NCBI RefSeq assembly: GCF_028368935.1
Contig: NZ_JAQNDK010000001.1
Span: 310,001 to 374,000 of the forward strand
Direction: 5' to 3'
DNA length: 64,000 nucleotides
Source: Sorangium aterium
Lineage (GTDB): Bacteria > Myxococcota_A > Polyangia > Polyangiales > Polyangiaceae
Shown here: piece by piece, positions 40,966 to 44,443 of the stretch
Numbering within the stretch: the first letter of the stretch is position 1
How the letters are laid out: each line of letters starts with the position of its first letter
Notes under the pieces: model-generated
What the model was told of the DNA's origin: nothing
The model's database searches: none
Seen by the model: only the letters and a program-made list of their open reading frames with translations
Program-made: the position numbers and the translations under genes

Positions 40966-41230
40966 TTCAACGAGGGTCCGCCCGGCAGACCGGGCGCTAC
41001 CTCGTGCGCCTCCGATCTGGAGGCGCCTGCCGGAGGCGGACAGCCCCGCGCACCGGCGGCCGGGCATTCGGTTGTCCGTCGTACGGAGCCGTCCCGAGGC
41101 GCGGGCACGCTAGTGAGCGACGGTGGTCACTGTCAAGGCGCGCCGGGGGGAAACATAAAGCGGACCACACAAAGCCTGCCGCTGCCCAGAAACCGGACCG
41201 CTCCCCCCCGAGGTGCTCGTGCCCTCAATC

Positions 41231-41408
<178 letters not shown>

Positions 41409-41645
41409 CCACCCGCCGGTCCCCGCCCCGCCAGCCCCCGCCCCGCCCCGCCCCCCTCCTGGAGCACGTGGCCACGCGGTACTCCCTGGGTTTTCTGACG
41501 AAGACCGCGTAGCCTGCGGAGAAGTCCGCAGCGTTCTTCGTCTTTCACTTGAGAACCGGAACGCGCTTCAACTACCCTCGGCGCCCATTACGACGCGCAG
41601 GGGCGCGGATATCCGTAGCAGCGAACCCCCCGCCGGAGGTGGTGC

Positions 41646-43079
41646 GTGTTCTGTCCGAATTGTGGGACGCAAAACTCGGAAACGGCGTCCACGTGCACGA
41701 AGTGCGGCTACAACCTGAAGAGCGCGGCCGCGCCGAAGTTCAAGGGCACCATGCTGATGAGTCAGCCGTCCTCCGGGGCGGGCGCGGCGGGTCCGCGCGC
41801 GCCGGGGGCGCCTCCGCCTCCGGCGCCTCCGGCCGGAGCGCCGCCGGGCATGGCCGCGATCCCGAGCCCGCCGCAGGGCCTCGCGGGCACGGTGGTCGGT
41901 GTCCCGCCGGCGGGGCTCGGCGCTTCGGCGGGGCCTCCCCCTGCCCCGCCGCCTCCCGGGATGGGCTACGGCTCGCCGCCCCCCGGCGGGCAGCAGCCGT
42001 CTGGCCCGGCCTTCGGCGGCGCGGCCGCGAGCCCGTCCGGCGGCTATGCGCCGTTCGGCCAGCAGCCCCAGGGCGTCAACCCGCTCGGCGGCACCATGGC
42101 GATCGACCAGCTGCCCGGATACGGCGCCCCGGGCCAGCCGCCCGGGGGCGCAGGCGCGCCGGCCGGCGCGTTTCCTCCGCCCGGCGGCTACGGGCAGCCC
42201 CCGCAGGGCGGCCCGGCCGGGAATCCTTTTGGACCGCCCCCGGGCCAGGACCCGATGGGCGGCCTCGGCGGCGCGCCTCCCGGCTACGGGCAGCCGCCCG
42301 GCTACGGGCAGCCACCCGGTTACGGGCAGCCGCCCGGCTACGGGCAGCCGCCTGGCGGCGCGCCTCCCGGCTACGGGCAGCCGCCCGGCGGCGCGCCTCC
42401 CGGCTACGGGCAGCCTCCGCAGCACGGCGCCAGCGGGTACGGTCCGCCTCCGGGCCAGGACCCGATGGGCGGCGGCTACGGCAGCCCTCCGGGCGGCGGC
42501 TACGGCAGCCCTCCGGGCGGCAGCTACGGCGGCCCTCCGGGCGGCGGCTACGGCGGCTCGCCGGCTGGCGGCTACGGCAGCCCTCCGGGCGGCGGCTACG
42601 GCGGCTCGCCCGGCGGCAGCTACGGCAGCCCTCCGGGCGTGAGCGATCCCGGCTATGGCGGGTCGCCCGGCGGCGCTCAGATGTCGGCGCCCGGCCAGTT
42701 CGGCCAGGCGGCCAGCAACCTGGGCGTGTACGGCGGCGGCGGCTCGATGGCCCCGGGCGCGAAGGGGGAGACCCGCAACCCGGTCACTGTGTGCGTGATC
42801 GGGATGGTCTGCTTCCTCTACGCCATCTGGCAGATGTGGGCGATGCTCAACGAGCTCCAGCAGGCGACGAAGGACCCCGAGTTCAAGCCCTGGTACCTCT
42901 TCATCCCGTTCCTCAACTACTACTTCCTCTGGGTGAAGGTGCCGGAGCAGGTGACCCGGGCCAAGCAGATGGCCGGCTCGCGCAACCAGCAGGCCGAGGG
43001 CATCGTGCTCTACGTCTTCCTCCCGCTCTACGCGCTCGCGAAGGACCTCAACGAGGTCTGGGACCCGAACGCCGGCTGA
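41646..43079 (+). CDS. Zinc-ribbon, Pro/Gly-rich membrane protein
   Basis: A 477-residue protein of three parts. Residues 3-20 are a zinc ribbon (CPNCG, then CTKCG). Residues about 45-375 are low-complexity Pro/Gly/Tyr repeats, chiefly PPGYGQ and later [13 protein letters not shown] units. The last ~110 residues contain two hydrophobic segments ([20 protein letters not shown] and [17 protein letters not shown]) resembling DUF4234-type membrane domains. The GTG start follows CCGGAGGTGGTGC, a good ribosome site. The ribbon should be cytosolic, and the disordered PG region may mediate assembly. Function unknown. Confidence 0.8.
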
Positions 43080-43100
43080 TCCGCGCCGCGGTCCTCCGCC

Positions 43101-43556
43101 GTGTCGCCGTCCAGCTCGACCGAAGCCGGTCCGCCCGCTCCGTCGGCCCTGTCCCGATGGAGCGCCGCGCACGTGCGCGGCCGCGCCGCGCGACTAGGCA
43201 CGGTGGCGGCGGTGCTCGGGATCCTCGTCGCGTGCGGCGCCCCGCTCTGCCCGTTCGCGATCGTCACCCGCCACCCCTGCCCCGGCTGCGGGCTCACGCG
43301 CGCGACGCTCGCCCTCGCGCAGGGCCACCTCGCGGACGCGCTGCGGCTCCACCCCCTCTCCCCGGTCATGGCGCCGCTCGTGATCGCCGCGCTCGCGTAC
43401 AACGCGGCGATCTACGTGAAGGACGGCCGCATCGCGGCCGCCGAGGGGATGCAGGGCGCGTGGGTCACGCGGCTCGGCATCGCGCTCGCGATCCTGATGC
43501 TCACCGTCTGGATCGCGCGCTTCTTCGGCGCGTTCGGCGGCCCCGTCCCTGTGTAG
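43101..43556 (+). CDS. DUF2752 family membrane protein
   Basis: A 151-residue protein with the DUF2752 signature CPFAIVTRHPCPGCGLTRA followed by ALAQGHLADALRLHPLSP, and three hydrophobic segments. Paired Cys in CPGCG and the conserved TRA/HP motif define the family, whose function is not established. It starts at GTG 43101, 21 bases after the previous stop, so it is probably cotranscribed with the zinc-ribbon gene. A large cruciform follows. Confidence 0.85.
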   Translation: MSPSSSTEAGPPAPSALSRWSAAHVRGRAARLGTVAAVLGILVACGAPLCPFAIVTRHPCPGCGLTRATLALAQGHLADALRLHPLSPVMAPLVIAALAYNAAIYVKDGRIAAAEGMQGAWVTRLGIALAILMLTVWIARFFGAFGGPVPV

Positions 43557-43590
43557 AGCCAAGCCCGACCGCGTCGCCCCCATGCCGCGC

Positions 43591-43717
43591 AGAGCGGCGG
43601 TCACCCGCACAGGAGACGGGCCCAGATCGGCGTTTTCGGCGCGGAAGCGCACTCCGGTGCGCTGAGCACCGAAAACGTCGAGATGGGTCCGTATCCGAAG
43701 CGGGTGACCGCCGCTCT
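43591..43717. terminator. Nested 127-base inverted repeat (cruciform)
   Basis: AGAGCGGCGGTCACCCGC (43591-43608) pairs perfectly with 43700-43717. Inside it, a second pair of about 27 bases around CGTTTTCGG/CCGAAAACG is about 80% complementary, and the apex holds AGCGCAC/GTGCGCT. The structure lies between convergent genes and abuts the stop codon of the hemerythrin gene at 43718. It can terminate both transcripts and may be a mobile palindromic element. Confidence 0.75.
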
Positions 43718-44284
43718 CTAGCAGCCGCGGACGCGGAGCGCTTCGCCCCTCCGCCGCGAGACGGGGCGCAGCGAGCGCACGGCGTGGGCGCCGCGCCGGG
43801 GCCAGCCGCGCTGCGAGCGCGCGAGCGGGGTGCCCGCGGGCACGCCGACGCGCAGCAGCACCTCGTAAGCGCGCTCCAGATCGCTGCCGATCACGTCGAG
43901 CTGCTCGTCCGTCAGGCCCCGCTTCGCCTTGGGGAACAGGATGTCCTCCTCCTCGTCGGCGTGGTGGGCGAAAATGTCCCGCAGGAGCCGGAGCCGCGCC
44001 TCGAAGCGCACATCGGTCACGCGCGTGCGCAGCAGGTTGTCCGCCGCGAAGCGCGCGAGGCCGTGCTTCTCGTACGCGTCGTGGAGCGGCTTCCTGTCGC
44101 CGGCCATCCGCTCGGCACACACCGGGTAGAGGTACGTCTCCTCGATGCGTACGTGCGCGTCGATCATCCGGGAGAGCTGCGCGACCATCGATGTCCGGAG
44201 GCCCGGGCTGGGCTCGGCGGCGATGCGCGCCATCAGGGCGCTGACTTCGAGATGCTGATGCTCCAAGAGATCGAGTGCGTCCAT
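43718..44284 (-). CDS. Hemerythrin HHE-domain protein
   Basis: A 188-residue protein with a four-helix hemerythrin-like domain in the first ~145 residues. Candidate di-iron ligands: LLEHQHLEV near the N-terminus, IDAHVRIEETYLYP, KHGLARF and FAHHADEEEDILFP. Such proteins bind O2, NO or iron and are often linked to nitrosative stress or redox sensing; the specific role is unknown. The C-terminal ~40 residues are Arg-rich and lack the domain. The ATG follows AGGGGAACCCC. The stop codon borders the cruciform. Confidence 0.85.
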   Translation of the reverse strand: MDALDLLEHQHLEVSALMARIAAEPSPGLRTSMVAQLSRMIDAHVRIEETYLYPVCAERMAGDRKPLHDAYEKHGLARFAADNLLRTRVTDVRFEARLRLLRDIFAHHADEEEDILFPKAKRGLTDEQLDVIGSDLERAYEVLLRVGVPAGTPLARSQRGWPRRGAHAVRSLRPVSRRRGEALRVRGC

Positions 44285-44443
44285 GGGGTTCCCCTCGCGT
44301 GAAGCTCACCGCCTCGCGCCGCCGCGCTTGAGCAGCGCGTGCACAGCCCCGGATCGCGGTGCCGGGCGGCGCGGTGCAGGCGGCACCGTCGTGGCAAGGA
44401 GCGGGCCGGCGCTGGGGCGCGCGGAGCGCGGGCGCTGCCTTGG

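Follow-up and report, generated by a model that had tools for sequence, protein, structure and literature searches.

Downstream of a hemerythrin-domain gene of Sorangium aterium, a palindrome of 127 bases runs up to the stop codon, which raises the question of whether the structure belongs to the transcript of that particular gene or is one copy of a repeat that moves. The window, that is, the whole stretch of 64,000 nucleotides under analysis, corresponds to G000:C1:310001-374000 of the host genome (13.47 Mb, seven contigs). We regard it as reasonably probable that the palindrome represents a new family of non-coding mobile hairpins that behave like ERIC and REP repeats, are anchored to stop codons, and probably act in the 3' end of mRNA.

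Structure of the hairpin at the window locus

The features of the locus, with the evidence for each, are as follows.

43591-43717, sense on the minus strand (the anchored gene is read toward the hairpin on this strand): hairpin element (fold z score, copy number, and anchoring)
43591-43608, no strand: outer arm, 18 bases, perfect (sequence; the outer part varies in other copies with compensating changes, from pair counts)
43612-43639, no strand: middle arm, with lasting internal loops, near-invariant in Sorangium (58-sequence alignment; loop state in 184 copies)
43640-43668, minus strand: apical stem-loop (alignment and comparison with other genera)
43669-43696, no strand: middle arm partner (58-sequence alignment)
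43700-43717, no strand: outer arm partner, adjoining the hemerythrin stop codon (sequence)
43718-43720, minus strand: TAG stop codon of the hemerythrin-domain gene, the anchored end, read as CTA on the plus strand (gene calls; TGA in three relatives without the hairpin)
43718-44284, minus strand: hemerythrin-domain gene, anchored by the hairpin (PF01814, E 7e-14)
43556-43590, no strand: tail of the long variant, 3' of the hairpin in sense, degenerate in the window copy (copy alignments)
43554-43556, plus strand: TAG with which the convergent DUF2752 gene ends, bordering the tail on the side away from the hairpin (gene calls)
43101-43556, plus strand: convergent DUF2752 gene (PF10825, E 8e-18)

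The initial annotation had described one continuous nested fold of 127 bases with perfect 18-base outer arms, a second imperfect pair of arms, and a small apex, and this anatomy was confirmed, with the apex at 43640-43668. Positions 43591-43608 and 43700-43717 are exact reverse complements, and the last base of the right arm directly precedes the hemerythrin TAG, as had been claimed; the arms of the imperfect second pair (43612-43639 with 43669-43696) are 28 bases each, however, rather than 27. The prediction is a single continuous imperfect stem with several small internal loops in the nested arms. For positions 43581-43727, which comprise the hairpin and 10 flanking bases on each side, the minimum free energy of the RNA was -113.9 kcal/mol on the plus strand and -106.0 kcal/mol on the minus strand, with z scores of -12.5 and -10.7, respectively, and none of 200 shuffled sequences was equally stable. 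A point absent from the initial annotation is that the gene on the opposite, plus strand (43101-43556) ends in TAG 34 bases to the left of the hairpin; this gene end (43554-43556) is the position at which a longer variant of the element starts in other copies.

The window copy has no U run of an intrinsic terminator directly after the hairpin, with the 3' flank reading GCGCGGCATGGGGGCG in sense and CTAGCAGCCGCGG on the plus strand. A search of window positions 43000-44400 against Rfam returned two miRNA models only, far below the gathering score, and five other hairpin loci returned nothing; a known Rfam RNA was thus rejected for these scanned loci. Elsewhere in the window, positions 41213-41548 hold a low-complexity repeat, the reading frames of which give GRGRGR, VDVDVD, or HDHDHD.

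Copies in the host genome and in the genus

A first search of the host genome gave 116 candidates and 40 scored places. A pattern built on 20 defined bases of the core, allowing three mismatches at most, matched 61 times compared with 4 times in a reversed control, one of the 61 matches being the opposite strand of the L094 copy. Flanks were fetched for all pattern matches except four, each of which had three mismatches, and BLAST found 60 pieces in 55 of 60 fetched loci, with each split hairpin yielding two pieces and two short hits in L137 being dropped. These pieces represent 56 distinct hairpin places, of which 54 are intact and 2 are split by an insertion sequence. The initial annotation had named a lack of other copies, in combination with transcripts ending well before the element, as the finding against it; the former is not what the genome shows. 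A one-off structure or a chance palindrome is ruled out by the fold z score together with these other copies.

The genus set consisted of the host, So0157-2 (G001), So ce26 (G002), So ceGT47 (G003), and So0008-312 and a metagenome-assembled genome (G004 and G005); NCBI assigns Sorangium to the Polyangiaceae, Myxococcota. The core pattern matched 36, 78, 40, 13, and 7 times in the other five genomes, and the hairpin recurred in all six. A scan of named genomes gave at least 120 matching stretches, and among the matches listed all titles were Sorangium. The window copy had no match in phage or plasmid records, and the exact apical-motif pattern had none in one scan of viral contigs.

The element is approximately 125 bases long, or approximately 165 bases with the tail in a young Sorangium subfamily. 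Young copies are near-identical in copy alignments and carry, on the side opposite the anchored stop codon, a tail of approximately 36 bases that by eye starts with TA-SAGCGG; its consensus on the plus strand, again by eye from copy alignments, is approximately TA followed by SAGCGGTTTCCGCCCACCTCTGCACCATGCMGAGC. At least two copies, L108 and L111, start with the hairpin itself and are bordered on both sides by stop codons of converging genes.

Anchoring at stop codons

A copy was counted as anchored when the sense 5' end of the hairpin lay within -6 to +4 bases of the stop codon of the gene reading into it, with genes called by a home-made gene finder, a codon model for which the loci and the window served as training data. 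The copies of So0157-2 and So ceGT47 came from 20 fetched regions each and are incomplete sets that lean toward divergent copies. Of the 96 Sorangium copies, 71 had the anchored end at a stop codon (host, 38 of 54 intact copies; So0157-2, 14 of 21; So ceGT47, 19 of 21), whereas the opposite end was so placed in 2; 25 copies fell outside the limits for anchoring. Given that both neighboring genes were called for 90 copies, we compared these with uniform random placement of the hairpin in its actual gap: 68 were anchored versus approximately 11 expected. By genome, in the same order, the values were 37 of 51 (6.3 expected), 14 of 20 (2.1), and 17 of 19 (2.2), with none of 20,000 simulations reaching the observed value in any genome, whereas the opposite hairpin end was at a stop codon 2, 0, and 0 times versus 5.6, 2.0, and 2.1 expected. 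The location at the 3' ends of genes, which the initial annotation could see at a single locus, is therefore far stronger than could be known from it, extending to these 71 copies and to 32 of 38 copies in other genera (see below).

At 10 bases or less from a hairpin end, the stop codon was TAG in 45 instances, TGA in 30, and TAA in 1, whereas the other genes in the same sequences ended in TAG 49 times, TGA 142 times, and TAA 8 times. Given that the end of the element holds a stop codon in one frame, a false open reading frame could seem to end at the hairpin. The gene end is confirmed by relatives at six sites (L079, L083, L088, L103, L105, and L108), with the remainder relying on the home-made caller. 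The anchored genes include those for dehydrogenases, DNA polymerase A, a tRNA synthetase, arginase, and hemerythrin. We found no shared function in the 68 of 72 anchored genes that were scanned, with no family having more than two matches among the 25 commonest of 98 families.

Conservation of the helices

We aligned 58 sequences in the sense (minus-strand) orientation. On a structure derived from these same sequences, 96.9% of 2608 cells were paired. Sixteen of the 45 base pairs change on both sides, with 145 compensating cells versus a mean of 46.4 in shuffled alignments; none of 500 shuffles reached any of five covariation measures, and slid structures scored far lower. By helix, pairs changed on both sides numbered 4 of 4 in the outermost helix, 6 of 12 in the next, 2 of 4 in the apical, and 4 of 25 in the middle helix, one sequence each. 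The helices are thus maintained by compensating changes. In a DNA palindrome, such changes can also come from template switching without selection, and the copies at L080, at L084 (second copy), and at L241 resemble template-switch corrections. Template switching has not erased the internal loops, however, given that corrected versions of three tested loop motifs were present in only 4, 1, and 2 of 184 distinct copies. On one side of the internal loops, the letters do vary between copies of the 58-sequence alignment. The apical motif reads by eye approximately GTGCTC-RRCGYAC-loop-GTRCGYY-TSCGCGC in sense and is the part most recognizable in other genera.

Occurrence in other genera

A covariance model built from the 58 aligned sequences was positive in 12 of 183 genomes of the order, comprising all six of the genus and six genomes in five other genera of the same family; the matches in G100 (E 2.7e-4) and G109 (E 4.9e-4) were weak. 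Among the matches listed in the six non-Sorangium genomes, which numbered 40, we examined 38 places, leaving out a partial match of 65 bases (G094:C8) and an opposite-strand duplicate (G095:C342). The lower stem of these copies differs in sequence from that in Sorangium yet pairs, and by eye the apical motif recurs in most of them. Eleven of the 38 places were folded and compared with shuffles, with resulting z scores of -5.2 to -10.7.

By raw count, and under a criterion looser than that applied to Sorangium (a stop codon ending 0 to 18 bases after the first model position), 32 of 38 copies had a stop codon right at, or close to, the foot of the hairpin on its sense 5' side; when a coding score of at least 20 was demanded, 29 of 38 did. 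The counts by genome were 15 of 17 in G149, 8 of 9 in G095, 5 of 6 in G094, 2 of 2 in G079, 2 of 3 in G109, and 0 of 1 in G100, and a converging stop codon was equally close on the other side in one copy (L397). A phylum-wide draw of 377 genomes gave five further positives, in two other families and with weak scores. One locus in another family of the phylum (L437 in G389, a genome with five matches among the matches listed) is a near-perfect palindrome with arms of approximately 30 bp and more and a similar apical motif.

Sites with and without the hairpin in related species

The spacer at the window locus is 23 bases in So ce26 and 27 bases in So ceGT47, compared with 177 and 175 bases in the host, and neither relative has the hairpin there. 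In So0157-2, 252 unrelated bases separate the anchors, rather than a clean gap. In total, 15 host sites had a counterpart in one or more relatives across a gap of no more than 420 bases, which allowed a comparison. The choice of sites was non-random: nine young copies entered in one query, six of them with both flanks, the window and L092 were compared separately, and the others came through overlapping loci. The hairpin was absent in at least one relative at 8 of the 15 sites (L079, L083, L088, L092, L097, L103, L105, and L108) and present in at least one relative at 8 (L086, L091, L102, L103, L104, L110, L118, and L129). Absence in a relative could be loss. No clean target duplication was found, and the spacers of different species were too different to fix the junction on the tail side.

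At three sites, a TGA in the empty state corresponds to TAG in the filled state: L079 (three relatives), L103 (two), and L108 (one). This step from TGA to TAG is not general, given that two hairpin-free relatives at L083 already have TAG, with one having TGA, and that L088 and L105 have TGA in both states.

In 13 comparisons of copies at the same site, the middle 99 bases were 90-98% identical and the outer 14 + 14 bases 68-100%, whereas 300 bases of the neighboring gene were 86-94% identical and the 60 bases beyond the far end 56-85%, with gaps. The identity of 90-98% is no proof of vertical descent, because any two copies share a similar middle. We tested vertical inheritance by the nearest-relative rank of same-site copies among the 183 other copies. 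The ranks were 2 and 30 for L091; 2, 116, and 118 for L102; 3, 20, and 179 for L118; 131 for L086; 156 for L103; 103 for L110; and 114 and 178 for L104. The pair L151/L174 was not rankable, and L103 versus L227 was left out because L227 is another hairpin in the same stretch. With ranks spanning 2 to 179, same-site copies are often not nearest relatives. The L104 site (compared with the second copy in L142, with L241, and with L304) has the hairpin in four genomes, with differing basal stems and an inverted orientation in So0157-2. These two observations indicate that the same stop codons seem to have been colonized, or their hairpins replaced, more than once; the kinship of same-site copies fits repeated colonization or replacement, not one simple insertion history.

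These comparisons bear on the possibility that the hairpin is mainly a functional RNA of the 3' untranslated region, or a terminator, that is under selection at certain gene ends, with copying being secondary. Such an RNA would accord with the finding that in most copies it is one and the same hairpin end that meets the stop codon, with a middle part that is about as well preserved at a given site as is the neighboring gene, unlike the far flank, with the compensating changes in the helices, and with the eight sites also filled in another species. The eight sites lacking the hairpin in a relative speak against it, however, as do the presence of only 56 places, beside unrelated genes, in a 13.5-Mb genome, the recent spread indicated by near-identical young copies, and the kinship of same-site copies, which often are not mutual nearest relatives and share their similar middle with any other copy. 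We consider this explanation unlikely, if still worth weighing. What we observe directly is a dispersed repeat that differs in presence and absence between species, has an asymmetric core, and in most copies has one fixed end on a stop codon.

Search for a mobilizing enzyme

The initial annotation had suggested a transposase-mobilized element as one identity for the palindrome, the other being an RNA structure that would protect 3' ends. The first idea held up in part: the many copies, together with the orthologous places that lack the hairpin, support a repeat of mobile type, but no transposase of the two families searched for could be tied to it. Searches of the host genome with PF13358 (DDE_3, IS630 type) gave three matches, two of them above the cut-off, and element end motifs were not found at the three matches except for one isolated 7-mer. 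PF01797 (Y1/RAYT) gave no match in the host genome, with 5 of 14 control genomes being positive.

The preferred target of transposition of the IS630/Tc1 or IS427 type is CTAG or TA. An ordinary TA-target MITE of either type, whose preferred target in a G+C-rich genome would fall mostly on stop codons by chance, is a possible, albeit doubtful, explanation. Such an element would be short, non-coding, and present in many copies, as is the hairpin with its 56 places; inspection by eye shows TA bounding the hairpin on either side in 14 of 17 G149 copies and in many young Sorangium copies, and two relatives have TA at the L083 site; and TA is reported at the ends of most small bacterial repeats of such kind in the available part of PMC2229807. 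The hairpin-free relatives at L079, L103, and L108, however, have TCA (TGA) and no TA, 30 of 76 anchored stop codons are TGA, and none of the three DDE_3 matches is an insertion sequence with the ends of the element. Moreover, both sides of the hairpin have similar ends, yet the anchoring counts are 71 for one and 2 for the other. Our first idea, a plain TA-target MITE, was thus weakened by the TGA at the site in relatives and by the one-sided anchoring.

A REP or REPIN element moved by a RAYT (Y1) transposase would also place hairpin repeats between or downstream of genes, and here, too, the neighboring open reading frame obtains its stop codon from the terminus of the element. With no PF01797 match, RAYT/REP machinery was rejected for the host genome; the hairpin is also 127 bases long versus 20-40 for REPs, and a GTAG tag is missing from the base of the window copy. 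CGTC is present within the frequent GCGTCGC flank of the element. We judge this origin very unlikely.

Relation to known repeats

ERIC repeats are approximately 127 bp in size. The hairpin resembles the descriptions of these enterobacterial repeats in size, in TA at the termini, and presumably in transcription with neighboring genes, and differs from them in its unrelated host group. GTAG-tagged REPs with RAYTs are likewise dispersed palindromes downstream of genes, and their termini often provide the TAG stop codon of flanking open reading frames, according to the available part of PMC3733652. They differ from the hairpin in being 20-40 bp long rather than 127 and in their GTAG tag, which the hairpin lacks, as its host lacks a Y1 match; the hairpin also anchors on TGA and, once, on TAA. 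Neither the available part of PMC3733652, for GTAG REPs, nor the available parts of ERIC descriptions mention an extended hairpin that places one end preferentially on a stop codon of whichever type, and systematic one-end anchoring on stop codons is likewise absent from the latter. Correia/NEMIS and RUP MITEs are non-coding, approximately 107-155 bp in length, and have TA at their ends and stable folded transcripts, as described in the available part of PMC2229807; the hairpin shares the non-coding nature, the comparable length, and the TA, whereas its terminal stem varies with compensation, its apex is conserved, and a parent insertion sequence was not found among the DDE_3 matches.

A literature search, based for several topics on the best-ranked results only, returned no description of this repeat family, and a term search of the available part of PMC12306157 returned neither Sorangium nor myxobacteria. 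We rate the hairpin as a new family among small interspersed palindromes, with stop-codon anchoring as its unusual part.

Integron attC sites are folded imperfect hairpins with a variable stem sequence that lie just downstream of cassette stop codons, and their core boxes are GTTRRRY and RYYYAAC. The position after the stop codon, the imperfect hairpin, and the variable stem of the element would suit a relic of such sites. The hairpin ends, however, lack core boxes of the GTTRRRY type, with the window copy ending in AGAGCGG/CCGCTCT; the copies are scattered; and relatives have the anchored hemerythrin gene without the hairpin. Descent from attC sites is thus highly improbable.

A model for insertion and function

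Under the reading that we prefer, that of a mobile, stop-codon-anchored hairpin, the repeat would have spread as a non-autonomous element, with an enzyme supplied in trans recognizing the folded hairpin core. The anchored end would join after the first base (T) of the stop codon. With the junction denoted by a slash, the ends of young copies (AGAGC) would supply AG and so convert T/GA to T/AG, whereas older ends (GAGCGG) would supply GA and the stop codon would stay T/GA. An end that joins after the T and rebuilds the stop codon would leave the host protein untouched. In the mRNA of the anchored gene, the ribosome would then stop in the base of a 125-base hairpin, and this contact probably alters 3'-end decay or read-through, as has been proposed for ERIC repeats. 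That the hairpin probably affects the mRNA 3' end is suggested by this geometry, in which the foot of the stem would lie under the ribosome during termination.

A more far-reaching version is that the hairpin belongs to a new class of mobile elements for which stop codons are the specific integration target, entered in the orientation of the gene. The site might be chosen via the ribosome at termination, via the mRNA, or via the 3' end of the mRNA; the element end would carry the bases for rebuilding the stop codon, and a putative enzyme would recognize the conserved apical hairpin. We put this forward as a speculative and rather improbable proposal. If the hairpin is such a mobile, anchored element, a single genome would contain dozens of large hairpins, almost the same in sequence, that are joined to stop codons of unrelated genes. 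The natural filled and empty alleles across species would make it possible to test what becomes of an mRNA when a hairpin touches the ribosome during termination, and the family would provide a test case for how an element targets stop codons without harm to its host.

Insertions and duplications at hairpin copies

Two copies carry a Tn5-like insertion sequence of the IS4 family inside the apex loop, in opposite orientations (L081, 1984-3572, and L126, 2016-3604). It encodes a transposase of 461 amino acids (NF033590, E 9e-85) and has direct repeats of 8 bases on its two sides, ACTCCAGT and ACTCACGT; the hairpin apex looks like a hot spot for this insertion sequence. The same L081 copy adjoins, on its tail side, ten tandem units of 17 bases (AGAGCGGCATGCCGAGC) at 1814-1983. 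In the flanks of the 96 Sorangium copies, short tandem duplications were present on the tail side in 12 and on the stop-codon side in 2, compared with 33 of 606 random pieces; this excess on the tail side is suggestive only. Tandem partial copies of the hairpin are present at the same place of So ceGT47 in L162 and L239, with three cores 105 bases apart in L239, and L242 of So0157-2 has three cores 33 bases apart and a fourth 444 bases away.
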